Below are positions 46,322 through 59,460 of a stretch of DNA of 64,000 nt, piece by piece. A program made the position numbers and the translations under genes. The notes beneath the pieces are model-generated. The model was not told the origin of the DNA and made no database searches. It was given only the letters and a program-made list of their open reading frames with translations. Source of the DNA: Hasllibacter halocynthiae (GTDB taxonomy: Bacteria > Pseudomonadota > Alphaproteobacteria > Rhodobacterales > Rhodobacteraceae); assembly GCF_003003095.1 (NCBI RefSeq), contig NZ_PVTT01000002.1, positions 496,001-560,000 of the forward strand, in the 5' to 3' direction. Numbering within the stretch: the first letter of the stretch is position 1; every line of letters begins with the position of its first letter.

Positions 46322-48931
46322 ATGGCACCGACGCCGATGATGGCGCAGTACCTGCGGATCAGGGAGGAAGCCGGGTCGGCCCTCCTCTTCTATCGCATGG
46401 GCGATTTCTACGAGCTCTTCTTCGAGGACGCGGAGGTCGCCGCGCAGGCGCTCGACATCGCGCTCACGAAGCGCGGCCAGCACGAGGGGCGCGACATCCC
46501 CATGTGCGGCGTGCCGGTCCATTCCGCCGAAGGCTACCTTCAGCGGCTGATCCGCGCAGGCCACCGCGTCGCCGTCTGCGAGCAGACCGAGGACCCCGCC
46601 GAGGCGAGGAAACGCGGCTCCAAGGCCGTCGTGAACCGCGAGATCGTGCGCCTCGTCACCCCCGGCACGCTGACGGAGGACGCGCTGCTCGACGCGCGGG
46701 CCGAGAACCTCCTCGCGGCCTTCCACCGGGTCCGGGACGAGGGCGCGCTGGCTTGGGTCGACATCTCCACCGGCGCGTTCACCGTGGCGGAGGCGCGGGA
46801 CCTGCCGCCCCTTCTCGCCCGCCTCGCGCCGGTCGAGGTCCTCGTCTCCACCGATTTCGAGGCGGCCATGGCCGAGACGGTCGAGACCGCGGGCGCCACC
46901 CTCACCCCCCTTGCGCCGTCGAGCTTCGACTCGACCGAAGGCGAGGCGCGCACCGCCAGGCTCTTCGGGGCGAGGGATCTCGGGGGCTTCGGCAGCTTCA
47001 CCCGCGCCCAGATCGGCGCGATGGGGGCCCTGGCCGACTGGCTGGAGATCACGCAGCGCGGCGCGCTCCCCCTCCTGCGCCCGCCTCGGCTGGAGCGGAG
47101 CTCGGGCGCCATGTCGATCGACGCCCCCACCCGCCGTTCGCTGGAGATCGCCGAGGCGCAGGGCGGCGGCCGCGCGGGATCGCTGCTGGAGGCGGTGGAC
47201 CGCACCGCGACGGCGTCGGGCGCGCGCCTCCTCGCCCGCCGCCTCTCGGCGCCCTCGACGGAGGTCGCGGTGATCCGCGCCCGGGCAGACGCGGTCGAGG
47301 CGCTGGCTGGCGACGCCGCCACTCGCGAGCGGTTCCGCGACGCGCTGCGCGCCGCGCCCGACCTCGACCGCGCCCTGTCGCGGCTGGCGCTGAACCGCGG
47401 CGGGCCGCGCGACCTCGCGGCGATCCGGGGGGGGCTGGAGTCGGCCCTGATCCTCGAGGGCGTGGCCCCGATGGACCTTCCGGACCTCCTCCGGGACGCC
47501 TTGGCGGACCTTCACGACCACAACGCCGTCTTGAACACCCTTCGATCCGCCCTCGTGGCCGAGCCGCCGCTCCTCGCGCGCGATGGCGGCCTCGTGGTCG
47601 AGGGCGCGGACGCCGAGCTGGACGAGGCGCGCGCTCTCCAGCACGACGGCCGTTCCGTGATCGCGGGGATGCAGAAGGACTACGCCGAGCGCACGGGCAT
47701 CGCCTCGCTGAAGGTCAAGCACAACAACGTCCTCGGCTACTTCGTCGAGACGACCGCGACCCATGCGGAGGCGATGCTCGCGCGGGACGACTTCATCCAC
47801 CGCCAGACGACCGCCTCGGCCGTGCGCTTCACCACGCCCGAGCTGTCCGAGCTAGAGACGAGGATCCTGAACGCCGCCGGCCGCGCCCAAGCCATCGAGC
47901 TGCGCATCTTCGAGCAGCTTCGCGCGCTGGTGCTGGACCGGGCCCCGGCGCTGCACGCCACCGCCGCCGCGCTGGCCGAGATCGACCTGGCGGCGGCCTT
48001 CGCGACCCTCGCGGTCGAGGGGGGCTGGACCCGCCCCTTGGTGGACGACTCGGCGGCCTTCGCGATTGAGGGCGGCCGCCACCCCGTGGTCGAGCGTGCC
48101 CTCCGCCGCGGCGGAACCCCCTTCGTCGCCAACGACTGCGACCTCGGCGGCCCCCGCGTTATCCTGCTGACCGGCCCGAACATGGCCGGCAAGTCGACCT
48201 TCCTGCGCCAGAACGCGCTGATCTGCCTCCTGGCGCAGACTGGCAGCTACGTTCCCGCCGCCGCGGCGCATATCGGCACGGTCGATTCCCTCCACTCCCG
48301 CGTGGGCGCTTCGGACGACCTCGCGGCGGGCCGCTCGACCTTCATGGTCGAGATGGTCGAGACGGCCGCGATCCTGAACCAGGCCGGCCCCCGGGCCCTG
48401 GTGATCCTCGACGAGATCGGGCGCGGCACGGCCACTTGGGACGGCCTCTCCATCGCCTGGGCGGTGCTCGAGCATCTCGAGGGCGTGAATCGCTGCCGCG
48501 CGATCTTCGCCACCCACTACCACGAGATGACGGCGCTCGCGGCCAAGCTGGATGGGGCCCGCAACGCCACCGTCGCGGTGCGCGAATGGGAGGGCGAGGT
48601 CGTCTTCCTCCACGAGGTCCGCGAGGGGGCGGCCGACCGCTCCTACGGGGTGCAGGTCGCCCGGCTGGCGGGGCTGCCCGCCTCCGTGGTGGATCGCGCC
48701 CGCCGCATCCTCGAGACTCTCGAGAACGGCGAGCGGGGGGCGAGGCCCGCCGCCCTTATCGACGACCTGCCCCTCTTCTCGAACGCTCCCCCGCCGCCGC
48801 CGCCCGCGAAGAGGGCCGGACCCGCCGAGGAGCGGCTGGACGCGGTCAATCCCGACGCCCTCACCCCGAGGGAGGCGCTGGACCTCGTCTACGAGCTGAA
48901 GGGATTGCTCAGCGCGCCATCCGGCGGATGA
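46322..48931 (+). CDS. mutS: DNA mismatch repair protein MutS
   Basis: 869 aa from ATG 46322. The mismatch-binding Phe-x-Glu equivalent is in LLFYRMGDFYELFFEDA near the start. The ATPase has Walker A GPNMAGKST (about residue 618), the DDLAAGRSTFMVEM segment and Walker B LVILDEIGRGTATWDG. It detects mismatches and recruits MutL. It stands between argS and the carotenoid cluster; its 3' end overlaps the convergent aldehyde dehydrogenase gene by 23 bases. Confidence 0.97.
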   Translation: MAPTPMMAQYLRIREEAGSALLFYRMGDFYELFFEDAEVAAQALDIALTKRGQHEGRDIPMCGVPVHSAEGYLQRLIRAGHRVAVCEQTEDPAEARKRGSKAVVNREIVRLVTPGTLTEDALLDARAENLLAAFHRVRDEGALAWVDISTGAFTVAEARDLPPLLARLAPVEVLVSTDFEAAMAETVETAGATLTPLAPSSFDSTEGEARTARLFGARDLGGFGSFTRAQIGAMGALADWLEITQRGALPLLRPPRLERSSGAMSIDAPTRRSLEIAEAQGGGRAGSLLEAVDRTATASGARLLARRLSAPSTEVAVIRARADAVEALAGDAATRERFRDALRAAPDLDRALSRLALNRGGPRDLAAIRGGLESALILEGVAPMDLPDLLRDALADLHDHNAVLNTLRSALVAEPPLLARDGGLVVEGADAELDEARALQHDGRSVIAGMQKDYAERTGIASLKVKHNNVLGYFVETTATHAEAMLARDDFIHRQTTASAVRFTTPELSELETRILNAAGRAQAIELRIFEQLRALVLDRAPALHATAAALAEIDLAAAFATLAVEGGWTRPLVDDSAAFAIEGGRHPVVERALRRGGTPFVANDCDLGGPRVILLTGPNMAGKSTFLRQNALICLLAQTGSYVPAAAAHIGTVDSLHSRVGASDDLAAGRSTFMVEMVETAAILNQAGPRALVILDEIGRGTATWDGLSIAWAVLEHLEGVNRCRAIFATHYHEMTALAAKLDGARNATVAVREWEGEVVFLHEVREGAADRSYGVQVARLAGLPASVVDRARRILETLENGERGARPAALIDDLPLFSNAPPPPPPAKRAGPAEERLDAVNPDALTPREALDLVYELKGLLSAPSGG

Positions 48932-50297
48932 TCCGCTGCATGAAGGGCGGGTGCGGCGGGGCGAGCATCCGCATCCACGGGCCCCGCGCCACGTGCATCA
49001 CGCTGCGCTCGTGGGTGAACGCCTCCAGCCCGCTCGTGCCGTGATAGGCGCCCATGCCGGAAGTGCCGATCCCCCCGAAGGGCAGATCGTGCGCCGCGAG
49101 GTGGATCACCGGCAGCCCCGTCGCCGCCCCGCCCGAACGGATGCGCCGCAGGAGCGCGGCGGACGCCCCCCGGTCCGGCCCGAACGCATAGGCCGCGAGC
49201 GGCGCCTCGTCCCGCTGGCGCCTGAGGATATCCTCCTCGGAGCCGTACTCGAGGATCGGCAGGACCGGGCCGAAGATCTCCTCGCGCATCAATGCGATGC
49301 CCTCGGGCGGGCGCAGCACGACCGCGGGGGCGACATGGGGCGCCTCGGCGTCGAGGGCGCGGACATCGGCGCCCGCGCCCCGCGCCTCGTCCAGCATCGA
49401 GCGGATGCGGTCCCCGGCGCGGGCGTCGATCATGGCGGTGTAGTCGCCCGCCCCGCCGAGGAACCGGCCGGCCTGCCCGAGGAGCGCGTCCGCCCAGGCG
49501 GGCGCGGTACCCTCGGGCACCAGAAGGAAGTCCGGCGCCACGCAGGTCTGGCCGGCGCTGAACCACTTGCCCCAGGCGATCGGGGCGGCCTCCCGCACGG
49601 GATCGGCGCCCGGCATGGCGATGGCGGGGGACTTGCCGCCCAGCTCCAGCGTCACGGGCGTCAGGTGGCGCGCGGCCGCGGCGGCGACCTTGCGCCCGAT
49701 CTCCGTCGAGCCGGTGAAGAAGATGTGCCCCAGCGGCAGGTCGCAGACCGCCGCCGCGACGTCCGGCCCCCCGGTCACGACGGCGACCTCGTCCGGGGGG
49801 AAGACCTCCCCCAGCATATCCGCGAGAAGCTCGGAGGTCGCAGGGCTCCGCTCGGACGGCTTCAGGATCACCCGGTTCCCCGCCGCCACGGCCGTCGCCA
49901 GCGGCACGAGCGCGAGCTGCAGGGGATAGTTCCAGGGCGAGAGGACGGCCACCACGCCCTTCGGCTCGCGCCAGATCTCCGTCCGGCCGGGGACGGGCCG
50001 CACCACGCGGCGGCGGCGCGTGCGCGCCCATCGCGGCAGGACGCGCTTGAGGTGCCGGATCGCGTCGAGGGTGAAGCCGACCTCGGAGGTCAGCGTCTCG
50101 ACCTCCGCGCGGTGACCTTGGAAGTCCGAGGCGACGGTCCGGGCGATCTCGTCCGTGCGGGCGCGAAGCACGTCCATGAGGGCGTCCAGACGGGCGATCC
50201 GCTCGCGGACGGAAGGAACGGCGCCGAGGTCGAAGGCCCGCGCGAGGCGGTCGTGCGCCTCGCGAACCGGGTGGGGGATGGGCGCTCCGTCGGCCAT
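48909..50297 (-). CDS. Aldehyde dehydrogenase, likely C30 carotenoid aldehyde oxidising
   Basis: 462 aa from ATG 50297, overlapping the glycosyltransferase stop (TGATG). It has the class 3-like length, SPWNYPLQLALVPLATAVAAGN, catalytic Glu near 218 (LELGGKSP), Cys near 252 (GQTCVAPD) and EEIFGPVLPI. The C-terminus (MRMLAPPHPPFMQRIIRR) is amphipathic and may bind membranes. As last gene of an operon with CrtN-, CrtP- and CrtQ-like genes it is the natural candidate for oxidising the terminal 4,4'-diapocarotenoid aldehyde to the acid, as AldH does in Staphylococcus. That role is inferred from context; the enzyme class is certain. Confidence 0.85.
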   Translation of the reverse strand: MADGAPIPHPVREAHDRLARAFDLGAVPSVRERIARLDALMDVLRARTDEIARTVASDFQGHRAEVETLTSEVGFTLDAIRHLKRVLPRWARTRRRRVVRPVPGRTEIWREPKGVVAVLSPWNYPLQLALVPLATAVAAGNRVILKPSERSPATSELLADMLGEVFPPDEVAVVTGGPDVAAAVCDLPLGHIFFTGSTEIGRKVAAAAARHLTPVTLELGGKSPAIAMPGADPVREAAPIAWGKWFSAGQTCVAPDFLLVPEGTAPAWADALLGQAGRFLGGAGDYTAMIDARAGDRIRSMLDEARGAGADVRALDAEAPHVAPAVVLRPPEGIALMREEIFGPVLPILEYGSEEDILRRQRDEAPLAAYAFGPDRGASAALLRRIRSGGAATGLPVIHLAAHDLPFGGIGTSGMGAYHGTSGLEAFTHERSVMHVARGPWMRMLAPPHPPFMQRIIRRMAR

Positions 50298-51433
50298 CAG
50301 TTCATGTCGTAGAGGCGGCCGCGCCACTGCGCCTGCGCCCCCTTCCGCGCCCCGAGGAGGGCCGACCACTGGATCGCCAGCGTCACCGCCACGCCGACCG
50401 GATGGAGGAGGACCGCGAGCGGACGCTGCCGCACCTTCCACGCCAGCAGCGCCCGGGCGAGGAGGACCATCGCCGTCGTAAGCAGCGCCACCTTGGCGGC
50501 GTAGTCGGCCCCCGCCCCCCAGGCGACCAACGCGACCACGGGCGGCAGGATGTGCCCGCCGGCTAGCAGGACCGTCCAGATCGGCAGCGCGACGGGCTTG
50601 GCCATCCCTTCGGTCGCGTTCTTCGTGAACCCCGACCAGATGTCGGCCCAGTTGTCGTACATCCGCACCCGCGCCAGCGGCGTCGCGTCCAGGATGTCCG
50701 TGCGCCCCCCCGCCGCCCGCACGTTGCGCGGCAGGTTCAGGCCGTCGTGCATCCGGTCCCGGAACGCCTCGTGGCCGCCGGCGGCGCGGTAGGCCTCGGC
50801 CTCGACCAGCATGAGCTGCCCGCACCCTGCCGCGAACCCTTCCCCAGGCAGCATGCGGGCCATCGGGAAGGGCAGGTAGCCGAGGAGGAGGACGAGGATC
50901 TGGGGGATCGTCACGACCTCGCCCAGGGTCCGGGTGATCTGGCGCGGAAAGCCCGAGACGAGGTCGAGGCCGCGCGCGTCCATGTAGCCGGACATGCGCG
51001 CCACCGCGCCGGGCGCGAGACGCACGTCCGCGTCGAGGAAGAGGAGCCGGGGATGCCTCGCCGCGAGCGCGAGCTGGTGGCAGGCGTGCTGCTTGCCGTT
51101 CCAGCCCATGGGCAACGGCGCCCCGTGGATCAGACGGACGCGCCCGTCGCGCGCCGCGAACTCGCCCACGATGCGGTCCGTCCCGTCGGTCGAGCCGTCG
51201 TCGCAGACCACGACCTCGATCTGCGCCCCCTCCTGCGCCAGCACCGCCTCGAGCGCGGCGCCGATGTTGCCCGCCTCGTCCCGCGCGGGGATCAGGACCG
51301 AGACGGGCCGCGGGGTTCCTTCGGGCGCACGCCGGGGCACGCCGAAGATCGCCAGGTTCATGAGCGTCACGACGGCATAGAGCCCGCCGAGGGCGAGGCC
51401 GAGCGAGGCGAGGATGTTCAACGCGAGGATCAT
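50297..51433 (-). CDS. crtQ: Family 2 glycosyltransferase, CrtQ-like
   Basis: 378 aa from ATG 51433. One N-terminal membrane helix (1-30) is followed by a GT2 domain: SVLIPARDEAGNIG, CDDGSTDGTD (Asp78-Asp79), the metal-binding FLDADVRL (134-136) and the acceptor region FRDRMHDGLNLPRNVRAAGGRTD; two or three C-terminal helices and a final QWRGRLYDM tail follow. The WNGKQHACHQ segment and the tail resemble staphylococcal CrtQ, which adds glucose to diaponeurosporenoate. HpnI/HpnB-like GTs are the alternative. Its partner genes support the carotenoid role. Confidence 0.8.
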   Translation of the reverse strand: MILALNILASLGLALGGLYAVVTLMNLAIFGVPRRAPEGTPRPVSVLIPARDEAGNIGAALEAVLAQEGAQIEVVVCDDGSTDGTDRIVGEFAARDGRVRLIHGAPLPMGWNGKQHACHQLALAARHPRLLFLDADVRLAPGAVARMSGYMDARGLDLVSGFPRQITRTLGEVVTIPQILVLLLGYLPFPMARMLPGEGFAAGCGQLMLVEAEAYRAAGGHEAFRDRMHDGLNLPRNVRAAGGRTDILDATPLARVRMYDNWADIWSGFTKNATEGMAKPVALPIWTVLLAGGHILPPVVALVAWGAGADYAAKVALLTTAMVLLARALLAWKVRQRPLAVLLHPVGVAVTLAIQWSALLGARKGAQAQWRGRLYDMN

Positions 51434-51440
51434 GGTGCCC

Positions 51441-52205
51441 CTATGTGGTGTGGTCCATGATATGGTCCGGATCGTGGGCGCGCCCAGCGGCGCGGGCGGT
51501 CACGCGCTTCCAGGCCCCGTAGACACCGCCCACGCCGCGCCGTCCACCGAGGACCGGCTCGAACGCCGCGGGGTCGCGTTCGCGGGCCGCGGCCGAGAGG
51601 CGCTCCATCGTCTCGTCGAGGCCGCGTTGCAGGGCCGCCTGCAGGTTCCGTGTCCGCACGGCGCGGGGGACGTCTTTGGATGGCGGGGCGGCGACGGGCG
51701 CGCCGAAGGCGGCAAGCGCCTCGGGGCGCTTCTCGCCCCAGAACGGGTACTCCAAGGCCAGCGGCACCGCCACGGTGCCGGGCACCCGGGCCATCAGATG
51801 CGCCAGCCCCGCCCGGATCGGGACCGCCGCGCGGGGATCGGCGAAGGTGCCTTGCGCCGTCATCCAGAGCGTGCGCGCCGGATCGGCGAGAACGTGCCGC
51901 CCCACCTCGAGGAAGCGCGCCGCGCCCGCGCGGCTGCCGGGCTCCACGCCGAAGAGGCCGATCCGCTTCATGAAGCCGTACCGCTCCAGCGCCTCGGCGT
52001 CGATCGGGCCGAAGGTGGTGTGCCGGGGAAGGAACGTCGTCGTCAGGACGATGTGGAAGGCCGGGTCCCACCATGAAGGGTGGTTGGAGTAGACGACGGT
52101 CGGCGCACCCTCGGGCAGCGCGGGCAGGCCGGGCCGCAGGAGGCGGACGGCGCGGAAGCTCCGCGCCATCTGCCGGCGCATGACGCCCGCGAAGAACCGG
52201 CACAT
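51441..52205 (-). CDS. PlsC-type acyltransferase, probable carotenoid acylation step
   Basis: 254 aa from ATG 52205. It has the acyltransferase motif NHPSWWDP (His42, Asp47), then FGVEPGSRAGAARFLE and LWMTAQGTFADPR, typical of the 1-acyl-glycerol-3-phosphate acyltransferase superfamily. It lies 7 bases before the crtQ-like gene and 65 bases after the crtP-like gene. In staphyloxanthin synthesis a fatty acid is added to the sugar by CrtO, an unrelated small protein; here a PlsC-like enzyme may fill that step. A general lipid role is the alternative. Confidence 0.78.
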   Translation of the reverse strand: MCRFFAGVMRRQMARSFRAVRLLRPGLPALPEGAPTVVYSNHPSWWDPAFHIVLTTTFLPRHTTFGPIDAEALERYGFMKRIGLFGVEPGSRAGAARFLEVGRHVLADPARTLWMTAQGTFADPRAAVPIRAGLAHLMARVPGTVAVPLALEYPFWGEKRPEALAAFGAPVAAPPSKDVPRAVRTRNLQAALQRGLDETMERLSAAARERDPAAFEPVLGGRRGVGGVYGAWKRVTARAAGRAHDPDHIMDHTT

Positions 52206-52270
52206 ACGGGGCGAGCGCAGGGCGACCGGATCGTCTGCGGGCGGCCCGGCGCGGGGCACGGGGGGGAGGC

Positions 52271-53788
52271 CTACTCGGCCGCGACGGCCGGAGCATTGGC
52301 CGCCGCGTCCCTGTCGAGGCTGTCGGCCGCGATCCAGCCCGACATCAGCGCCATCGGCATCCCCGGCCCCGGATGGGCGGACCCGCCAGCGAGGTAGAGG
52401 TCCCGCACCTGCCGCGAGCGGTTGCCCGGCTTGAAGGCTCCGTTCACCTTTCCATGGCTGACGAGGCCGTAGATCGCCCCGTCCAGCACCTTGTAGCGGT
52501 CGTGGATGCTCTGCGGGGTCAGCGCGCGCTCGACGACGATCCGCTCCTCCAGATCCTCCATCCCGGCGGCGCGGGCGAGCTTGGACATGATCTTCGCCCG
52601 CTCGCCGGGCAGCATCGCCTCCCAGTCGTGACCGTCCCTCAGATGCGGCGTGTGGACGAGGACGTAGAGCGCCTCGCCCCCCTCGGGCGCGACGCCAGGC
52701 TCGGTCCGGGCAGGGGCGGCGATGTAGGCGGTCGGGTCGGGCGCCGGCACGCCTTGGTCGTAGATGGCCGCGAACTCCTCCTCGGGGTCGCGCGAGAAGA
52801 CGAAGTTGTGATGGGCGAGATGGTCGTAGGCTCGGTCGAGCCCGAGATAGAGCACGATGCCCGAGCAGGCCGCCTCGCGCTTGCGGTAGCCGAAGTCGCG
52901 CCAGGCGTCGCCGCCGACCAGTTCGCGATAGGTGCGCACCGAATCCATGTTCGAGACGACCTTGTCGAAGCGCATACGCTCGCCGTCCGCGACGACCCCG
53001 ACGGCCCGGCCGTCCTCGACGTCGATCCCAGTCACGTCGACGCCCGTCCGGTAGTCGACGCCCAACTCCTCGCCCAGCCGGGTCAGCGCCGTCGGCACGG
53101 CGCGGGTGCCGCCGATCGGGTACCAAACCCCCTCGCCCTGCTGCATCTGCGCGATCCCGCACAGCACCGCCGGAGAGGCCAGGGGCGACGAGCCCACGTA
53201 TTGGATGAAATGCTCCAGCATCTGCTGGACACGGGGGTCGCGCACGTCCTTCTTGATCTGCCCCGCCACCGTGCGGTGCATCCGCAGCGCCATCACGTCG
53301 GACAAGGTGGCGAGGTTCATGTTCTGCTTCAGGTTCATCGTGTCGCGGATGTCCTCGACCGAGCGCCAGAAGAAGAACCGGTCCGACACGTCCGAGAGGC
53401 GGTCCGCCACCTCCATGAACCGCTGGAAGCCCGCCTCGTCCGCGGGGGAGAGCCTGCCGATCTCGCGCGCGGCCTCGGCGGGATCGTCCCGCAGGTCGAG
53501 GACCGTGCCGTCGTCGTAGAAGCAGCGCCACTGCGGATCGAGGCGGCGCAGGTCCAGATAGTCCGTCATGTCCCGCCCGGCTTCGGCGAACACGCGCTCC
53601 AGCACGCGGGGCATGGTCAGGATCGTGGGGCCCATGTCGAAGCGGAAGCCCCCCTCCTCCAGCTCGGCCGCCTTGCCGCCCAGCCACTCGTTCTTCTCCA
53701 GCAGCGTGACCTTGTGCCCCCGCGCCGCGAGCGTCGCCGCGGCGGCGAGGCCGCCGAGGCCGCCGCCGATGATGCCGACCGTGCTCAT
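52271..53788 (-). CDS. crtP: CrtP-like diapocarotenoid oxygenase (CrtI superfamily)
   Basis: 505 aa from ATG 53788 (ATGA overlap with the crtN-like gene). The FAD-binding IIGGGLGGLAAAATLAARGH opens the protein. Compared from memory with staphylococcal CrtP it shares FDMGPTILTMP, MLEHFIQYVGSS, LAHHNFVFS, GAIYGLV and the C-terminal LYLAGGSAHPGPGMPM. CrtP oxidises the terminal methyl group of 4,4'-diaponeurosporene to an aldehyde. A second desaturase is the alternative, but the paired presence with a distinct CrtN-type gene favours oxidation. Confidence 0.83.
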   Translation of the reverse strand: MSTVGIIGGGLGGLAAAATLAARGHKVTLLEKNEWLGGKAAELEEGGFRFDMGPTILTMPRVLERVFAEAGRDMTDYLDLRRLDPQWRCFYDDGTVLDLRDDPAEAAREIGRLSPADEAGFQRFMEVADRLSDVSDRFFFWRSVEDIRDTMNLKQNMNLATLSDVMALRMHRTVAGQIKKDVRDPRVQQMLEHFIQYVGSSPLASPAVLCGIAQMQQGEGVWYPIGGTRAVPTALTRLGEELGVDYRTGVDVTGIDVEDGRAVGVVADGERMRFDKVVSNMDSVRTYRELVGGDAWRDFGYRKREAACSGIVLYLGLDRAYDHLAHHNFVFSRDPEEEFAAIYDQGVPAPDPTAYIAAPARTEPGVAPEGGEALYVLVHTPHLRDGHDWEAMLPGERAKIMSKLARAAGMEDLEERIVVERALTPQSIHDRYKVLDGAIYGLVSHGKVNGAFKPGNRSRQVRDLYLAGGSAHPGPGMPMALMSGWIAADSLDRDAAANAPAVAAE

Positions 53789-55356
53789 TCCGCGGCCTCC
53801 TTGAACTTCGGTTGGGTTGGAAGTTGATCGGGCAGGGCGTCCGCGTCCAGCCCCAGGTCCTCAGCCGCGAGGCGCGAGGCGATGCGCGCGCTCTCGAAGA
53901 TGGTCGGCAGGCCCGAGCCGGGATGCGTGCCGCCCCCCGTCAGGTAGACGCCGTCCACGTCCTCGAACCGGTTGCGGGGCCGCCAGTGCAGCATCTGGCC
54001 CAGGTTGTGCGCGAGGTTGAAGGTCGCGCCTCGGAAGATGCCCATCTGCGTCTGCCAGTCGGCGGGGGTGATCATCCGCTCGGTCCTGATGCGCGGGCGG
54101 ATGTCGTGGCCGGTCAGCTTGGAGAGCCGGTCGAGGATCTTCTCGCGGTAGACCGGGCCCAGCGCCTCCCAGTCCTCGGGACCGGACAGGTTGCCCGTCG
54201 GCACGAGGACGTAGAGCGTGGAGTGCCCCTCCGGCGCCAGCGTCGGGTCGGTGACGGAGGCGTTCTGGACGTAGATCGTCGGATCCTCCGGCGCGCGGCC
54301 CTCGTCGATCTCCTGGATGTTCTTCAAGTAGTCGTCCGACAGGTGGATCGTGTGGTGGCTCACGTCGTCGAGCCGCCCCTCGATCCCGAGATAGAGCATG
54401 AAGGTCGAGCAGGAGTACTTCTTGGAGTCCACCTTCGCATCCGTCCACCGCCGCCGCTTCGCGTTCGGGATCAGCTTCGGGATGGTCGAGGCGAAGTCGC
54501 CGTTCACGATCACGGCATCGGCCTTCAGCACCTCTCCGTTCACGCGGACGGCCCTGGCCTTGCGGCCCTCGAACTCGATCTCCTCGGCGGGGGCGCTCAG
54601 GCGAATGTCGACGCCCATCTCGCTGGCCACGCGCGCCATCGCGCGGGGGATCGCGTTGCAGCCACCGATCGGGTGGAACACGCCGAACCCGTACTCGACA
54701 TGCGCGACGATGGTGAAGAGGGACGGGCACTTGAACGGGCTCATCCCGAGGTACTTCGACTGGAACGAGAAGGCGAGGCGCAGATCGGGGTGCTTGAAGA
54801 AGCGCCGCAGGTCCTGGTCCACCGTCAGCCAGGGCCGGAACAGCGGGAACGCCTTCACCATGTCCATGCGCGCCAGATCCCGGGGCCCGAGGAAGGGGCG
54901 CTGGAGGATCGGCTTGAAGGCGGCGAACTTGTCGATCTGCTCCTGCAGGTAGGCAGGCACGTTGCGGGCGTCGTCGGGGTCGATCTTCGCGGCCTCGGCC
55001 TTCAGCCGCTCGACGTCCGGGGTGGCGTCGAAGGTGTTCCCGTCGTCGAACTGCAGCCGGTACATCGGGTCGAGCCGCTTCAGCTCGACCTCCTCGAAGA
55101 GGTCGCGCCCGCAGGCCTGAAACACTTCCTGCAGCACCTCGGGATAGAGGTAGAAGGTCGGGCCGTAGTCGAAGGTGAACCCGTCCTGCGTGAACGAGGC
55201 GGTGCGCCCGCCCACGCGGTCCTCGCGCTCGAGCAGGGTGACGCGCGCGCCCGCCGCGCGCATCAGCATCGCGGAGGCCAGCCCCCCGGGGCCGGCGCCG
55301 ATCACCACGACGTCCCTCGTTTCCTGTTGCCCGCTCGCGCCGGTCATGGCGTTCAT
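53785..55356 (-). CDS. crtN: CrtN-like squalene/diapophytoene desaturase (CrtI superfamily)
   Basis: 523 aa from ATG 55356, one base into the DUF2141 stop (TGATG); a second ATG at 55347 is possible. FAD motif VVVIGAGPGGLASAMLMRAAG. It resembles staphylococcal CrtN through FDYGPTFYLYPEVLQEVFQACG, SCSTFMLYLGIEG, LSDDYLKNIQEIDEGRAP, DPTIYVQNASVTDPTLAPEG and LYVLVPT. It would desaturate a C30 backbone to 4,4'-diaponeurosporene or diapolycopene. As no CrtM is encoded here but HpnCDE are, squalene is the likely substrate. Confidence 0.85.
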   Translation of the reverse strand: MNAMTGASGQQETRDVVVIGAGPGGLASAMLMRAAGARVTLLEREDRVGGRTASFTQDGFTFDYGPTFYLYPEVLQEVFQACGRDLFEEVELKRLDPMYRLQFDDGNTFDATPDVERLKAEAAKIDPDDARNVPAYLQEQIDKFAAFKPILQRPFLGPRDLARMDMVKAFPLFRPWLTVDQDLRRFFKHPDLRLAFSFQSKYLGMSPFKCPSLFTIVAHVEYGFGVFHPIGGCNAIPRAMARVASEMGVDIRLSAPAEEIEFEGRKARAVRVNGEVLKADAVIVNGDFASTIPKLIPNAKRRRWTDAKVDSKKYSCSTFMLYLGIEGRLDDVSHHTIHLSDDYLKNIQEIDEGRAPEDPTIYVQNASVTDPTLAPEGHSTLYVLVPTGNLSGPEDWEALGPVYREKILDRLSKLTGHDIRPRIRTERMITPADWQTQMGIFRGATFNLAHNLGQMLHWRPRNRFEDVDGVYLTGGGTHPGSGLPTIFESARIASRLAAEDLGLDADALPDQLPTQPKFKEAAE

Positions 55357-55766
55357 CAATAGTACCTCATGCTGAGCGTGAGCCGCCCGCTTCCGTTGAT
55401 CTGGACGGCCGCGTCCGAGAAGCGCGGCGGGCCCATCCGCAGGGGTGCGTCCCGCGAGAAGCCCAGCCCCTCGGAGGGGCGGAAGCCCCGGCGGTTCAGA
55501 TTGCCATCGTTGTTCTCGTCGTGGAAGGCCTGCACCGCGTAGACGCCCGCCGGCACGTCCCTGACCACGACGACCTCTCCGGCGGGCGCGGTGGCGGTGT
55601 AGGGGCAGTCGGGGCGCGTGAAGCTGCTCTCCGGGCAGACGGCGACGCGGACGACCCCCAAGCCCGAGCGCAGGTCCGTCACCTCCACCGTCACGTCGGC
55701 CGCGAGGGCCGGCGCGGCGAAGGCTAGCGTTCCGACCACGAGGCCGGTCATACTGTCCCAAGGCAT
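55356..55766 (-). CDS. DUF2141 domain protein, exported
   Basis: ATG 55766 gives 136 aa (an in-frame ATG at 55796 adds ten residues; one at 55751 removes five). A signal peptide ends near APALAA. The DUF2141 beta-sandwich follows: VTVEVTDLRSGLGVVRVAVCPESSF, VVVRDVPAGVYAVQAFHDENNDGNLNRRGF with the acidic DENNDG loop that probably binds calcium, and EGLGFSRDAPLRMGPPRFSDAAV. It is first in the leftward crt operon and probably acts in the periplasm or outer membrane. Its role in carotenoid deposition or transport is a guess from position. Confidence 0.85.
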   Translation of the reverse strand: MPWDSMTGLVVGTLAFAAPALAADVTVEVTDLRSGLGVVRVAVCPESSFTRPDCPYTATAPAGEVVVVRDVPAGVYAVQAFHDENNDGNLNRRGFRPSEGLGFSRDAPLRMGPPRFSDAAVQINGSGRLTLSMRYY

Positions 55767-55791
55767 AGGCACACCTTTCTCTCCCGGTGGG

Positions 55792-55805
55792 GCCACCTAG
55801 GTGGC
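55792..55805. promoter_or_regulatory. 14-bp palindrome in the divergent crt/hpn promoter region
   Basis: GCCACCTAGGTGGC is a perfect palindrome in the 75-base gap between the DUF2141 start (55766) and hpnC start (55842), so it lies upstream of both operons. It is a plausible operator shared by the two operons; the regulator is unknown and not encoded next to it. Confidence 0.5.
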
Positions 55806-55841
55806 GGGCACGGAGAGTCACGGGAAGCGGGGCACGGGTAG

Positions 55842-56717
55842 ATGACGCTTGCGGACGCACCCGAGGAAGGGGGGATCGGGCCGGCCGCGCGCCGCGGGCC
55901 CGACCCCCTCGTGCGTGCCGCCCGGGCCGAGAACTTTCCCGTCGCCTCGCGCCTCCTGCCGCGGGCGACGCGCGCGCGGGTGATGGCCTTCTACCGCTTC
56001 GCGCGCACTGCCGACGACGCCGCGGACGACCCCGCAAGCGCCCCTTCCGAACGCCTCGCGGCCCTCGCGCGCCTGGAGGAGGGGCTGCGCGCCGGCCAGC
56101 CGGCGAACGCCGGCGCCGAGCTGCGCGCGGCCCTTGCGGGCACCCCGGGCGCGGCGGGGGCGGCCGCGGCGGCGCTGGACCTCCTGCCGGCGTTCCGGCG
56201 CGACGCGGAAGGGATCCTCTGCGCGGACTGGGCCGATCTCGCCGGCTACTGCCGCTTCTCCGCAGCGAGCGTCGGGCGCTTCCTCCTCGCGATCCACGAG
56301 GAGGGGGAGGGCGCAAGGGCGCCCTCGGATGCGCTCTGCACCGCGCTCCAGGTGCTAAACCATCTCCAGGACATGGGCGCCGACCGGCGCCGGCTCGGCC
56401 GGCGCTACCTGCCCGGCAACTGGATGGAGGCCGAGGGCGCGCGCGACGCGGACCTCCTGGCCCCCGCGCTGACGCCCGCGCTGCGCCGCGTCGTACTGCG
56501 GACCCTCGATGCCGCCGACGACCTTCTCGAGGAGGCCGCGCCGCTGCCAGCCCGCATCCGGGCGCGGGGCCTGCGCGCCCAGTCCACCGCGACGCTTCGC
56601 CTTGCCCGCCGCCTCTCCGCCCGGCTGCGCGTGGGCGATCCGCTCGCGGGCCGCGTCGCCCTCTCGCGCGTCGACTTCCTTCGCGCGGGCGCCGCGGGCC
56701 TCGGGGCCTGGGCATGA
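55842..56717 (+). CDS. hpnC: Hydroxysqualene synthase HpnC
   Basis: 291 aa from ATG 55842. It is a trans-prenyl head-to-head synthase: the HpnC hallmark ENFPVAS (30-36), the first Asp-rich motif in ARTADDAADD (about 55-64) and the second in LQDMGADRRRLGRRYLP (about 175-191). HpnC converts presqualene diphosphate (made by HpnD) to hydroxysqualene. It heads the rightward operon; hpnD starts inside its stop (ATGA). Confidence 0.92.
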   Translation: MTLADAPEEGGIGPAARRGPDPLVRAARAENFPVASRLLPRATRARVMAFYRFARTADDAADDPASAPSERLAALARLEEGLRAGQPANAGAELRAALAGTPGAAGAAAAALDLLPAFRRDAEGILCADWADLAGYCRFSAASVGRFLLAIHEEGEGARAPSDALCTALQVLNHLQDMGADRRRLGRRYLPGNWMEAEGARDADLLAPALTPALRRVVLRTLDAADDLLEEAAPLPARIRARGLRAQSTATLRLARRLSARLRVGDPLAGRVALSRVDFLRAGAAGLGAWA

Positions 56718-57580
56718 GCTTCGCGCCCGCCACCGACATCGCCCGCGACATCGCCGAGGTGCGGCGCGTCGTCGCCTCCGCCGGCTCCTCCTTCGCGGCG
56801 GGCATGCGGATCCTGCCCGCCATGCGCCGCCGCGCGATCCATTCGGTCTACGCGCTCTGTCGCGTGGTGGACGACATCGCCGACGGCGACGCCCCCGGCT
56901 GCGCCGATCCCGGGACGCGCGCGCGCCTCCTCGACGATTGGGACGACGAGATCGCCAGGACCTTCGCCGGCAGCCCCCGCACCGCCATCGGCGCCGAGAT
57001 CGCCCGCTCGGCCGAACGGCACGCCCTCCCTCGGAGGGAGTTCGAGCTGATCCTCGAGGGGATGCGGATGGACGCGGACGCCATCGTTGCCCCATCGGCC
57101 CAGCGCCTCGATGCCTATGTCCGCCGCGTCGCGGGGGCGGCCGGCATCCTCTCGATGCGCTGCTTCGGCGCCTGGAGCGGGCCCCCTTCCGAACGGTTCG
57201 CCCTGAACCTCGCGCGGGGGCTGCAGCTGACGAACATCCTGCGCGACGTGGAGGAGGACGCGCGCAGGGGCCGCCTATACCTTCCCCGCCACGTCCTCGA
57301 CGCCGCCGGGCTGCCGCACGACCCCGCCGGCGTCCCCGGCGATCCGCGCCTACCGGCCGCGCGCGCGGCGCTCGGCGCCGAAGCCCGGGCCGGGTTCAAG
57401 GCCGCCGCCGCCGAGATCCCGGCGCATCGCCGCGTGCCGCTCCTGCCCGCCCTGATGATGATGGGCCCCTACGAGCGGCTCCTCCGCCGCTGGGAGGCGG
57501 ACTGGGCCGCACCTCCTCCCCCCCGCTCCCGATGGGGCAAGGTTGCGGACGGGGTGGCGACGGCGACCCGCCTTAGATGA
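56714..57580 (+). CDS. hpnD: Presqualene diphosphate synthase HpnD
   Basis: 288 aa from ATG 56714. Asp-rich motifs CRVVDDIADG (about 49-58) and LTNILRDVEEDARRGRLYLP (about 172-191) bind the Mg-diphosphates of two farnesyl diphosphates, which it joins to presqualene diphosphate. Length and GMRMDADA fit HpnD rather than phytoene synthase, and its pairing with hpnC and hpnE settles it. ATGA overlaps on both sides. Confidence 0.92.
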   Translation: MSFAPATDIARDIAEVRRVVASAGSSFAAGMRILPAMRRRAIHSVYALCRVVDDIADGDAPGCADPGTRARLLDDWDDEIARTFAGSPRTAIGAEIARSAERHALPRREFELILEGMRMDADAIVAPSAQRLDAYVRRVAGAAGILSMRCFGAWSGPPSERFALNLARGLQLTNILRDVEEDARRGRLYLPRHVLDAAGLPHDPAGVPGDPRLPAARAALGAEARAGFKAAAAEIPAHRRVPLLPALMMMGPYERLLRRWEADWAAPPPPRSRWGKVADGVATATRLR

Positions 57581-58827
57581 GCCGCGCGTTCGTGATCGGC
57601 GCGGGGCTGGCCGGCCTCGTCGCGGCCGAACGCCTGTCGGCGGCCGGGCGGGACGTCACCATCCTGGAGGCGTCCCCCAAGGCGGGCGGGCGCTGCCGCT
57701 CCTACCGGGACGAGCGGCTGGGCCAGCTTATCGACAACGGCAACCACCTGATCCTCTCCGCGAACCGGGCCGTCCTCGGCTGGGCCCGGCGGATCGGCGG
57801 CGCGGATGCCCTGCGGGAGGGCGAGGCCGCCTTTCCCTTCCTCGACCTCGCGGACGGCCGGCGCTGGACCGTGCGGCCGGGACGGGGGCCGCTGGGATCG
57901 CTGGCGGCGGCCGCGCGCCCGCCGGGCGTCGGCAGGGCGGCGCTGCTGCGCGAGGTCGGCCGCCTCCTCCTCGCGCGGCGGGGGCGCACCGTCGCGGCGG
58001 CGGTCGGCGCCGGCGGGCCCGCCTGGCGCGCCTTCTGGGATCCGATGACCCGCGCCGTCCTGAACGAGGACCCCGAGGAGGGGGATGCCGGCCTCCTGCG
58101 CGCGGCGATGGTCCGCTCCTTCGCCAAGGGCGAGCGCGCCGCGCGCCCCGTCTTCGCCCCTGGCGGGCTCGGCCCCGCGCTGATCGACCCGGCGCTGGCC
58201 CTCCTGGCGGGGCGGGGGGTCGGGACGCGCCTGCGAACGCCCGTCACCGCCATCCACGGCGGGGGCCGCGCCGAAACGCTCGAGACGCGCGATGGACCGA
58301 TCCCCCTCCGGCCTGGGGACGTGGCGGTCCTGGCCGTGCCGTCCCAGCATGCGGCGAGCCTACTTCCCGGCATCCCGGTGCCCGGGCCGGGCCGGACCAT
58401 CGCCAACGGGCACTTCCTCGTGCCCGCACACGGCCTGCCGCCGCTCCTCGCGCTGCTCGGGGGCACCGCGCACTGGCTCTTCGCACGGGGGGACGTGGTG
58501 TCGGTCACGGTCTCGGCGGCCGAGCGGTCCCCCCTCGACGGGCTCGGGCGGGAGGAGGCGCTGGCCCGCCTCTGGTCCGACGTCGCCCGCGCGATCCGCG
58601 CGCATGGCGGCACGGCCCCTGACGCGATGCCCGCCGCCCGCTTCCTGCGCGAGCGGGCCGCGACCTTCGACCAGTCGCCCACCGGCGCGGCGCGGCGGAC
58701 GGGCCCCCGGACGGACCGGGCGAACCTCTTCCTAGCGGGGGACCACGCGGCGACGGGGCTACCGGCCACCCTCGAAGGCGCCGTCCTCTCCGGCGAGCGG
58801 GCGGCGGACCTCGCCCTGCGCGCCTGA
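57577..58827 (+). CDS. hpnE: Squalene-forming FAD oxidoreductase HpnE
   Basis: 416 aa from ATG 57577. FAD motif FVIGAGLAGLVAAERLSAAG, then ILEASPKAGGRCRSY, DNGNHLILSANRAVLGWARRIG and FWDPMTRAVLNEDPEEGDAG, all HpnE-typical, with a C-terminal FLAGDHAATGLPATLEGAV. It reduces hydroxysqualene to squalene. Third gene of the hpnCDE set, which normally feeds hopanoids but here stands beside C30 carotenoid genes and no cyclase. Its 3' end overlaps the convergent DUF2238 gene by 69 bases. Confidence 0.9.
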   Translation: MSRAFVIGAGLAGLVAAERLSAAGRDVTILEASPKAGGRCRSYRDERLGQLIDNGNHLILSANRAVLGWARRIGGADALREGEAAFPFLDLADGRRWTVRPGRGPLGSLAAAARPPGVGRAALLREVGRLLLARRGRTVAAAVGAGGPAWRAFWDPMTRAVLNEDPEEGDAGLLRAAMVRSFAKGERAARPVFAPGGLGPALIDPALALLAGRGVGTRLRTPVTAIHGGGRAETLETRDGPIPLRPGDVAVLAVPSQHAASLLPGIPVPGPGRTIANGHFLVPAHGLPPLLALLGGTAHWLFARGDVVSVTVSAAERSPLDGLGREEALARLWSDVARAIRAHGGTAPDAMPAARFLRERAATFDQSPTGAARRTGPRTDRANLFLAGDHAATGLPATLEGAVLSGERAADLALRA

Positions 58828-59460
58828 CGGGCCGCGCCAGCGCGGCCAGAGCACCGGGTTGGCCGCCATCGTGTCCAACATGAGGCCGGCCGGAACGACC
58901 GCCACGCGCCCCGCGAGGGCGAGCGTGCCGGCCACCGCCCCCCAGACGCCGCCCAGGGCGTTCGCGATCACGTCCGTCATCGTGTCCGGCAGGCCGCTGC
59001 GCTGCGTGTTCAGCCCGAACCCGATGTCCAGGCCGAACTCCAGCACCTCCCAAAGCGCGCCGACCATCTGCGAGAAGCCGAAGGCCAGCACCCCCGCCAC
59101 CCAGAGGCGCCGCGCGGGCCAGGTCCCGCCCGTCAGCGTCAGCGCGAGGCCGAGGCCCGCGACCGACAGCACGGCGGCGCTGACGAGGTGCAGCGCGAGG
59201 TCCCAGGCCGGGACCGCCTCGTAGATGCCCGACCACTCGCCGAGGAGGAGCGCGGCCGCCACGAAGATCGCGATCTGCGCATGCAGCCGGAACGGGAAGC
59301 GCAGGCCCGAGAGGGCCTCGAAGGCCGGCAGCAGGATCGCGCATCCCGAGACGCCGATCAGCACCCCCGCGAGGACCGTGTCGAACGGCACGGCGCACAG
59401 CGCGGCGACCGCGAAGAGCGCGGCCGGCACGGCGCTGACGGCGGGGCTTCGGTGGGACAC
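58759..59460 (-). CDS. DUF2238/VanZ-like integral membrane protein
   Basis: GTG 59460 with GGAAGG upstream gives 233 aa. About six membrane helices span residues 10-180; DTMTDVIANALGGVWGAVAG (about 158-177) is the conserved acidic helix motif of the DUF2238 group. The hydrophilic C-terminal tail of about 25 residues overlaps the last 69 bases of hpnE, so the tail may be accidental. No function is known. Location at the end of the carotenoid block suggests a link but does not prove it. Confidence 0.75.
   Translation of the reverse strand: MSHRSPAVSAVPAALFAVAALCAVPFDTVLAGVLIGVSGCAILLPAFEALSGLRFPFRLHAQIAIFVAAALLLGEWSGIYEAVPAWDLALHLVSAAVLSVAGLGLALTLTGGTWPARRLWVAGVLAFGFSQMVGALWEVLEFGLDIGFGLNTQRSGLPDTMTDVIANALGGVWGAVAGTLALAGRVAVVPAGLMLDTMAANPVLWPRWRGPSGAQGEVRRPLAGEDGAFEGGR

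Follow-up and report, generated by a model that had tools for sequence, protein, structure and literature searches.

Hasllibacter halocynthiae very probably carries a pathway that produces C30 carotenoids from squalene, encoded by a compact gene cluster at positions 48909-58827 of the window (the analyzed stretch of 64,000 nucleotides, C2:496001-560000) in a genome of 2.78 Mb that is 99.7% complete. Open reading frame (ORF) listing and family scans identified two divergent arms, namely hpnC, hpnD, and hpnE on the plus strand, and genes encoding a small DUF2141 protein, a CrtN-type desaturase, a CrtP-type terminal oxidase, a PF01553 acyltransferase, a family 2 glycosyltransferase, and an aldehyde dehydrogenase on the minus strand (Table 1). 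A sequence-only reading had proposed this divergent arrangement as a complete, squalene-routed cluster; all of the genes that it named were intact ORFs, but the DUF2141 gene and a further gene, dn1, had been overlooked. Of 28 genomes that carry the locus, 22 gave no SQS_PSY match of CrtB strength (at least 228 bits, away from the locus), and the CrtN/CrtP pair therefore has no CrtB to feed it in these genomes. Squalene-hopene cyclase was not matched in any of the 28. These two absences together are the strongest argument that the locus probably functions in pigment production and that hpnCDE probably supply it. The 28 genomes are those of 35 related loci, window included, without L064, L066, L068, L098, L138, L060, and L065, which were left out of the SQS_PSY and cyclase searches.

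The cluster was well conserved among the 35 loci when a gene was counted at a coverage of at least 50%. All eight core genes were present in 25 loci, and the divergent order hpnEDC/crtN-crtP was retained in 31 of the 32 loci that had hpnCDE in the stretch; the cluster is therefore not a chance assembly. CrtP was found in all 35 loci, CrtN in 34 (and in two pieces in one more), the acyltransferase in 34, the glycosyltransferase in 33, HpnC, HpnD, and HpnE in 32 each, the aldehyde dehydrogenase in 28, dn1 in 21, and DUF2141 in 17, and some of the misses were due to short contigs (L068 and L070). Counts made without the coverage limit included remnants and were slightly higher (26 for all eight core genes, 34 for the glycosyltransferase, 35 for CrtN, and 22 for dn1). 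The only rearranged order was observed in L118, labelled Salipiger sp. IMCC34102, in which hpnCDE lie beyond the aldehyde dehydrogenase and dn1 genes and the CrtN matches fall in two separate pieces.

Named genomes were scanned with an alignment of CrtP, and the best 80 of 93 relatives were considered. The 31 best named matches, with at least 75% identity, carried labels of the Rhodobacterales group, and two records state Rhodobacterales, in agreement with the host proposed from the sequence alone. Genus labels among the closest of these relatives included Jannaschia, Palleronia, Oceaniovalibus, Rubellimicrobium, Limimaricola, Tropicimonas, Pseudoroseicyclus, Wenxinia, Tranquillimonas, Roseitranquillus, and one strain labelled Salipiger, most of which belong to this group. 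Outside the group, the CrtN-CrtP-acyltransferase-glycosyltransferase set was present in loci labelled Acetobacteraceae and Azospirillum, and relatives of CrtP were also found in Planctomycetes and Chthoniobacterales. The cluster was plasmid-borne in Limimaricola variabilis OXR-209, L. hongkongensis, and Palleronia sp. LCG004.

HpnD, HpnC, and HpnE are known to make squalene; CrtN acts as a desaturase and CrtP oxidizes the end of the chain, and aldehyde dehydrogenase, glycosyltransferase, and acyltransferase finish the product. In H. halocynthiae, HpnD and HpnC would convert two farnesyl diphosphates via presqualene diphosphate into hydroxysqualene, which HpnE would reduce to squalene. CrtN would then desaturate squalene to a colored C30 chain, CrtP would convert a terminal methyl group into an aldehyde, and the aldehyde dehydrogenase would turn this aldehyde into a carotenoid acid, to which the glycosyltransferase and the acyltransferase may attach a sugar and a fatty acid. 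The last two genes adjoin crtP, as in the Methylorubrum/Azospirillum-type pathway. Alternatively, the C30 route may be real and end in an acid, aldehyde, or methyl ester that carries neither sugar nor fatty acid, which is the rival with the best prospects, although it appears less probable than a tailored product. A different product was described for M. extorquens PA1 despite its tailoring genes, as reported in excerpts of PMC10448405. On the other hand, the glycosyltransferase and acyltransferase genes were kept in 33 and 34 of the 35 loci, respectively, and the homologues in M. extorquens AM1 act in these steps according to deletion and complementation; the aldehyde dehydrogenase of AM1 was reportedly not found (PMC10448405). 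The aldehyde dehydrogenase of the present locus, which shares 43% identity with that of a Microvirga cluster, is a candidate for the step that was not assigned in AM1.

A sulfotransferase gene follows the glycosyltransferase gene in several sister C30 loci (PF13469 in L209:12358-13467; also L085, L088, L072, L087, L083, L069, L053/L089, and L101), which are labelled Palleronia, Pseudoroseicyclus, Rubellimicrobium, Tranquillimonas, Roseitranquillus, and Azospirillum TSH64. These genes hint at sulfated C30 carotenoids in such strains. The same search gave no sulfotransferase match at the locus in the window.

A genome-wide search for crtB, crtI, crtM, and a C40 cluster, as suggested with the sequence-only reading, revealed no CrtM candidate, but a C40 set was present, and the organism is therefore not restricted to C30 genes. 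A photosynthesis gene cluster located approximately 170 kb away contained crtI, crtB, crtD, a crtA-like gene, and pufLM. CrtB scored 504 bits with a cut-off of 500 and CrtD 620 bits with a cut-off of 580, whereas the crtA-like gene scored 262 bits, under the cut-off of 300; models confirmed no further crt genes in that cluster. The C30 pathway would thus run beside a separate C40 pathway of the spheroidene type that serves photosynthesis. The possession of C40 and reaction-centre genes, as well as one Limimaricola strain (L080) with an apparently decayed cluster, would also be compatible with a C30 cluster that is not expressed here or is only a remnant, with the carotenoids of the strain supplied by the C40 pathway. 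This is unlikely, because the genes are intact here and five other genomes among the 28 keep both sets.

Reaction-centre genes were searched for in the same 28 genomes and in one more (G004), and were detected in six of the 29, namely H. halocynthiae, Limimaricola pyoseonensis, Palleronia abyssalis, Jannaschia sp. Os4, Tranquillimonas alkanivorans, and Palleronia aestuarii. CrtB-strength matches occurred in exactly these six genomes. The other 22 contained only HpnC, HpnD, a short SQS_PSY protein, and fragments, and two of them (G489 and G496) also lacked full HpnC and HpnD. H. halocynthiae harbored two reaction-centre sets, the pufLM of the photosynthesis cluster (C2:745900-747671) and a second pufLM at C3:49340-54216, on a 104-kb contig that also encodes PufC (296 bits, cut-off of 150) and, as judged by eye, a PuhA-like protein. 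The L and M proteins of the two sets are 65 and 60% identical. Among the 60 of 149 family genomes with matches, four reaction-centre matches were counted in this genome only; Tranquillimonas alkanivorans also had four.

The two CrtI-type proteins could also be duplicates of C40 CrtI and CrtD that act on phytoene or its products, since CrtB of this genome could supply phytoene and CrtN of the window shares about 35% identity with C40 CrtI. A maximum-likelihood tree of 34 proteins, from which three rows had been removed beforehand (one in the wrong frame, one partial, and one empty), separated CrtD (7 rows, 100/100), CrtI (7 rows, 100/99), squalene-route CrtN (10 rows, 100/100), and CrtP (9 rows, 94/89; 8 rows without Staphylococcus xylosus, 100/99). 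CrtN and CrtP of the window grouped separately in the last two clades, as had been proposed from the sequence, where they joined proteins from two planctomycetes and Azospirillum brasilense Sp7, outside the clades of C40 CrtI and CrtD. A C40 identity was rejected based on this tree and on the presence of crtI and crtD proper in the photosynthesis cluster. Furthermore, most genomes with the locus had no CrtB-strength match, which makes a role on phytoene very improbable. A sequence search of the PDB with the CrtP alignment found only two carotenoid desaturases.

The genome contained four SQS_PSY proteins, namely HpnC, HpnD, CrtB of the photosynthesis cluster, and one short protein, and no CrtM candidate was found among them. 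The short protein was rejected as a CrtM because no NCBIfam family matched it at 1e-25; read by eye, its sequence does not show the first aspartate motif that is usual in such proteins, and all 28 genomes that carry the locus contained a short match of the same kind. No match to TIGR01507 was found for squalene-hopene cyclase in this genome, and PF13243 gave no match in the 28 genomes, whereas the controls B. subtilis and M. acetivorans did match. These results agree with the earlier proposal of a squalene route that bypasses CrtM, and none of the outcomes listed with that proposal as refuting it was observed. Among 149 family genomes, which represent 149 different genus codes, an HpnE match above 250 bits was found in six, five of which carry the C30 locus. 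The least probable explanation of all, that hpnCDE function in the synthesis of hopanoids or sterols and lie beside the carotenoid genes by coincidence, draws on their standing as classic hopanoid genes and on the sixth genome (G004), where they are next to squalene-hopene cyclase with no CrtN or CrtP in the stretch fetched, but it was rejected because the cyclase had no match in H. halocynthiae or the 28 genomes, is rare in the family (4 of 149 genomes, one over the cut-off) and in an excerpted survey (shc in 3 of 203 Rhodobacterales genera; PMC12583986), and because hpnCDE share a stretch with crt genes in 32 of the 35 loci. Neither hpnCDE nor squalene should therefore be taken as a sign of hopanoids in this group. 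On a plasmid of Microvirga ossetica (L205:11400-13058), a protein of 552 amino acids was matched by both HpnC (47%) and HpnD (45%) and is apparently a fusion; the C30 cluster there also has an S-adenosylmethionine (SAM) methyltransferase gene and ispH.

Several observations weigh against the squalene-route interpretation. HpnC and HpnD scored below the curated cut-offs, though these were their best-scoring families (Table 1). CrtN of S. xylosus, encoded by plasmid genes, does not join CrtN of the window in the tree; its long branch leaves from a polytomy shared with CrtI and CrtN. The aldehyde dehydrogenase was only 31% identical to that of the Sp7 cluster and was missing from 7 of the 35 loci; two AldH candidates in M. 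extorquens had no effect, and the corresponding tailoring genes in strain PA1 show no effect on the product, according to PMC10448405. In addition, Limimaricola litoreus (G489) and L. variabilis CECT 8572 (G496) have CrtN and CrtP with no full HpnC or HpnD match, the former in a locus that is a 6.9-kb contig and the latter in one that looks decayed. The CECT 8572 locus (L080) retains only CrtN and CrtP with glycosyltransferase remnants, and strain OXR-209 of the same species (L204) has an intact plasmid-borne cluster.

Table 1. Features of the C30 carotenoid locus in the window.
Feature	Position	Strand	Basis
Aldehyde dehydrogenase (AldH-like)	48909..50297	-	PF00171, 254 bits; GQTC motif
Glycosyltransferase family 2 (CrtQ-like)	50297..51433	-	GT2 in Pfam; nearest NCBIfam models HpnB and CruG, under cut-off
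PlsC-type acyltransferase	51441..52205	-	PF01553, 27 bits (cut-off 23); HX4D
CrtP-type terminal oxidase	52271..53788	-	crtI_fam, 411 bits (cut-off 238); tree clade
CrtN-type desaturase, squalene-route clade	53785..55356	-	crtI_fam, 528 bits (cut-off 238); tree clade
Small DUF2141 protein	55356..55766 (ORF to 55796)	-	PF09912, 75 bits; signal-like N-terminus by eye
Candidate promoter of crt operon, GTGAC-N17-TAGGTG	55794..55821	-	Element common to related intergenic regions
HpnC, hydroxysqualene synthase-type	55842..56717	+	TIGR03464, 226 bits; best family, under cut-off (250)
HpnD, presqualene diphosphate synthase-type	56714..57580	+	TIGR03465, 227 bits; best family, under cut-off (279)
HpnE, hydroxysqualene dehydroxylase	57577..58827	+	TIGR03467, 292 bits; over cut-off (283)
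dn1, conserved multi-helix membrane protein, candidate extra component	58759..59460	-	Convergent with hpnE; no Pfam family

The coordinates indicate overlaps of 4 bases at three gene junctions. The motifs that characterize these enzyme families were in place, including DXXXD in HpnC and HpnD, GXGXXG in HpnE, CrtN, and CrtP, and DAD in the glycosyltransferase, as well as those of the acyltransferase and the aldehyde dehydrogenase. The DUF2141 gene lies between the two arms, and the ATG at 55766 was preferred as its start because the GTG further upstream falls within the candidate promoter. Of 31 intergenic regions, window included, 15 carry a GTGAC-N17-TAGGTC-like sequence ahead of the crt arm, compared with a mean of 0.09 in composition shuffles and 0 on the opposite strand; in the whole window, a single match was counted over both strands. 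Because the motif had been defined from these very sequences, which are related to one another, and base composition was the only property preserved in the shuffles, the element is a candidate promoter only.

No Pfam family was matched by dn1. Its AlphaFold2 (AF2) model is helical, with a mean predicted local distance difference test (pLDDT) score of 83, and a search with this model gave no PDB match at E<=0.001. The alignment contained many invariant polar residues. Among the 22 loci in which it was found, dn1 lies beside hpnE in 11 and beyond the aldehyde dehydrogenase gene in 11, and its retention in two arrangements suggests a functional link with the C30 locus. Homologues were present in 32 of the 149 family genomes; with a profile built from in-cluster rows, the in-cluster dn1 scored above 300 bits in four of the five genomes that have the locus, whereas none of the other listed matches exceeded 173 bits. 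Because of these relatives elsewhere in the family, the two arrangements do not amount to proof of the link. Seven outside loci were read, where dn1 relatives often lie beside an endonuclease/phosphatase-type gene and a gene for an EamA-like transporter, and these neighbors gave no functional lead.

Rhodobacterales are known mainly for C40 carotenoids. Among the literature matches listed, none described C30 carotenoids from the named genera or from Rhodobacterales in general, a scope that did not cover a PNAS 2022 survey of the squalene route, which may list some; similarly, excerpts of a paper on carotenoid producers did not tie C30 carotenoids to Rhodobacteraceae (PMC13028206). The novelty suggested by the sequence-only reading may thus hold for this group, but not for the route, which is already backed by genetics in Methylorubrum and Azospirillum, is also known in Planctomycetes, and is said in an excerpt of PMC10448405 to be widespread in prokaryotes. 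The conservation of the locus under eleven genus labels, together with the lack of a CrtB-strength match in most of the genomes, predicts a C30 pigment derived from squalene in such strains. A phototroph with both routes also allows one to ask directly what each pigment is for. More speculatively, and with the odds against the scheme as a whole, H. halocynthiae might operate two carotenoid pathways at once, a C40 pathway for photosynthesis and a squalene-fed C30 pathway probably for the cell envelope, with dn1 (or, as a second candidate, the DUF2141 protein) as an undescribed, dedicated component in Rhodobacteraceae without which the completed glycolipid carotenoid could not be positioned or transported, and with the sister clusters that contain sulfotransferase genes producing sulfated C30 glycolipids.

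The staphyloxanthin-like character proposed earlier was only partly retained. The CrtP clade is shared with S. xylosus, the glycosyltransferase is 26% identical to its CrtQ, and the logic of acid, sugar, and fatty acid is the same. In contrast, HpnCDE take the place of CrtM, and the PF01553 acyltransferase had no BLAST match at 1e-4 to S. xylosus CrtO, which spans only 390 bases in that record. Planctomycetes (K23_9 and Stieleria) contain CrtN and CrtP orthologues in the same clades with 52-59% identity; however, among 29 labelled planctomycete loci, several of them short contigs, the aldehyde dehydrogenase was matched in 22 (26-33%), the acyltransferase in 12, the glycosyltransferase in 10, CrtN in 5, and the hpn genes in none of the stretches covered. 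Methylorubrum (Methylobacterium) extorquens AM1, compared by description only, resembles H. halocynthiae in making squalene with HpnCDE and in its genes for CrtN, CrtP, a glycosyltransferase, and a lysophospholipid acyltransferase, and its product is 4-[2-O-11Z-octadecenoyl-glucopyranosyl]-4,4'-diapolycopenedioic acid, an acylated glucosyl diapolycopenedioic acid. The AM1 genes differ in that they are not in one locus and hpnCDE are next to squalene-hopene cyclase (both from excerpts of PMC10448405).

The cluster of A. brasilense Sp7 (plasmid ABSP7_p3, record NZ_CP012917.1) has CrtN, CrtP, acyltransferase, and glycosyltransferase genes in the same order and also contains DUF2141, with identities to the window of 55, 66, 54, 55, and 46%, respectively. 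According to excerpts of PMC13274349, deletion of crtNPOQ in Sp7 removed the pigment and led to accumulation of squalene, whereas deletion of hpnCDE, which are at another locus there, abolished the pigment and squalene was not detected. The Sp7 cluster also differs in the position of DUF2141 (at the end of the operon), in its less similar aldehyde dehydrogenase, and in the lack of a dn1 match in the 19.4-kb stretch. The locus of H. halocynthiae thus combines HpnC, HpnD, and HpnE in the absence of CrtM with CrtN and CrtP that fall in the clades of genetically supported enzymes (the Sp7 rows); it shares the CrtP-type oxidase with the staphyloxanthin set but not CrtM or a CrtO-type acyltransferase, and has neither the squalene-hopene cyclase of a hopanoid cluster nor the CrtI/CrtD-clade proteins of a C40 cluster. 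The pathway is closer to the Methylorubrum/Azospirillum type than to staphyloxanthin, and is distinguished by its compact layout, the lack of squalene-hopene cyclase, and its coexistence with C40 photosynthesis genes.

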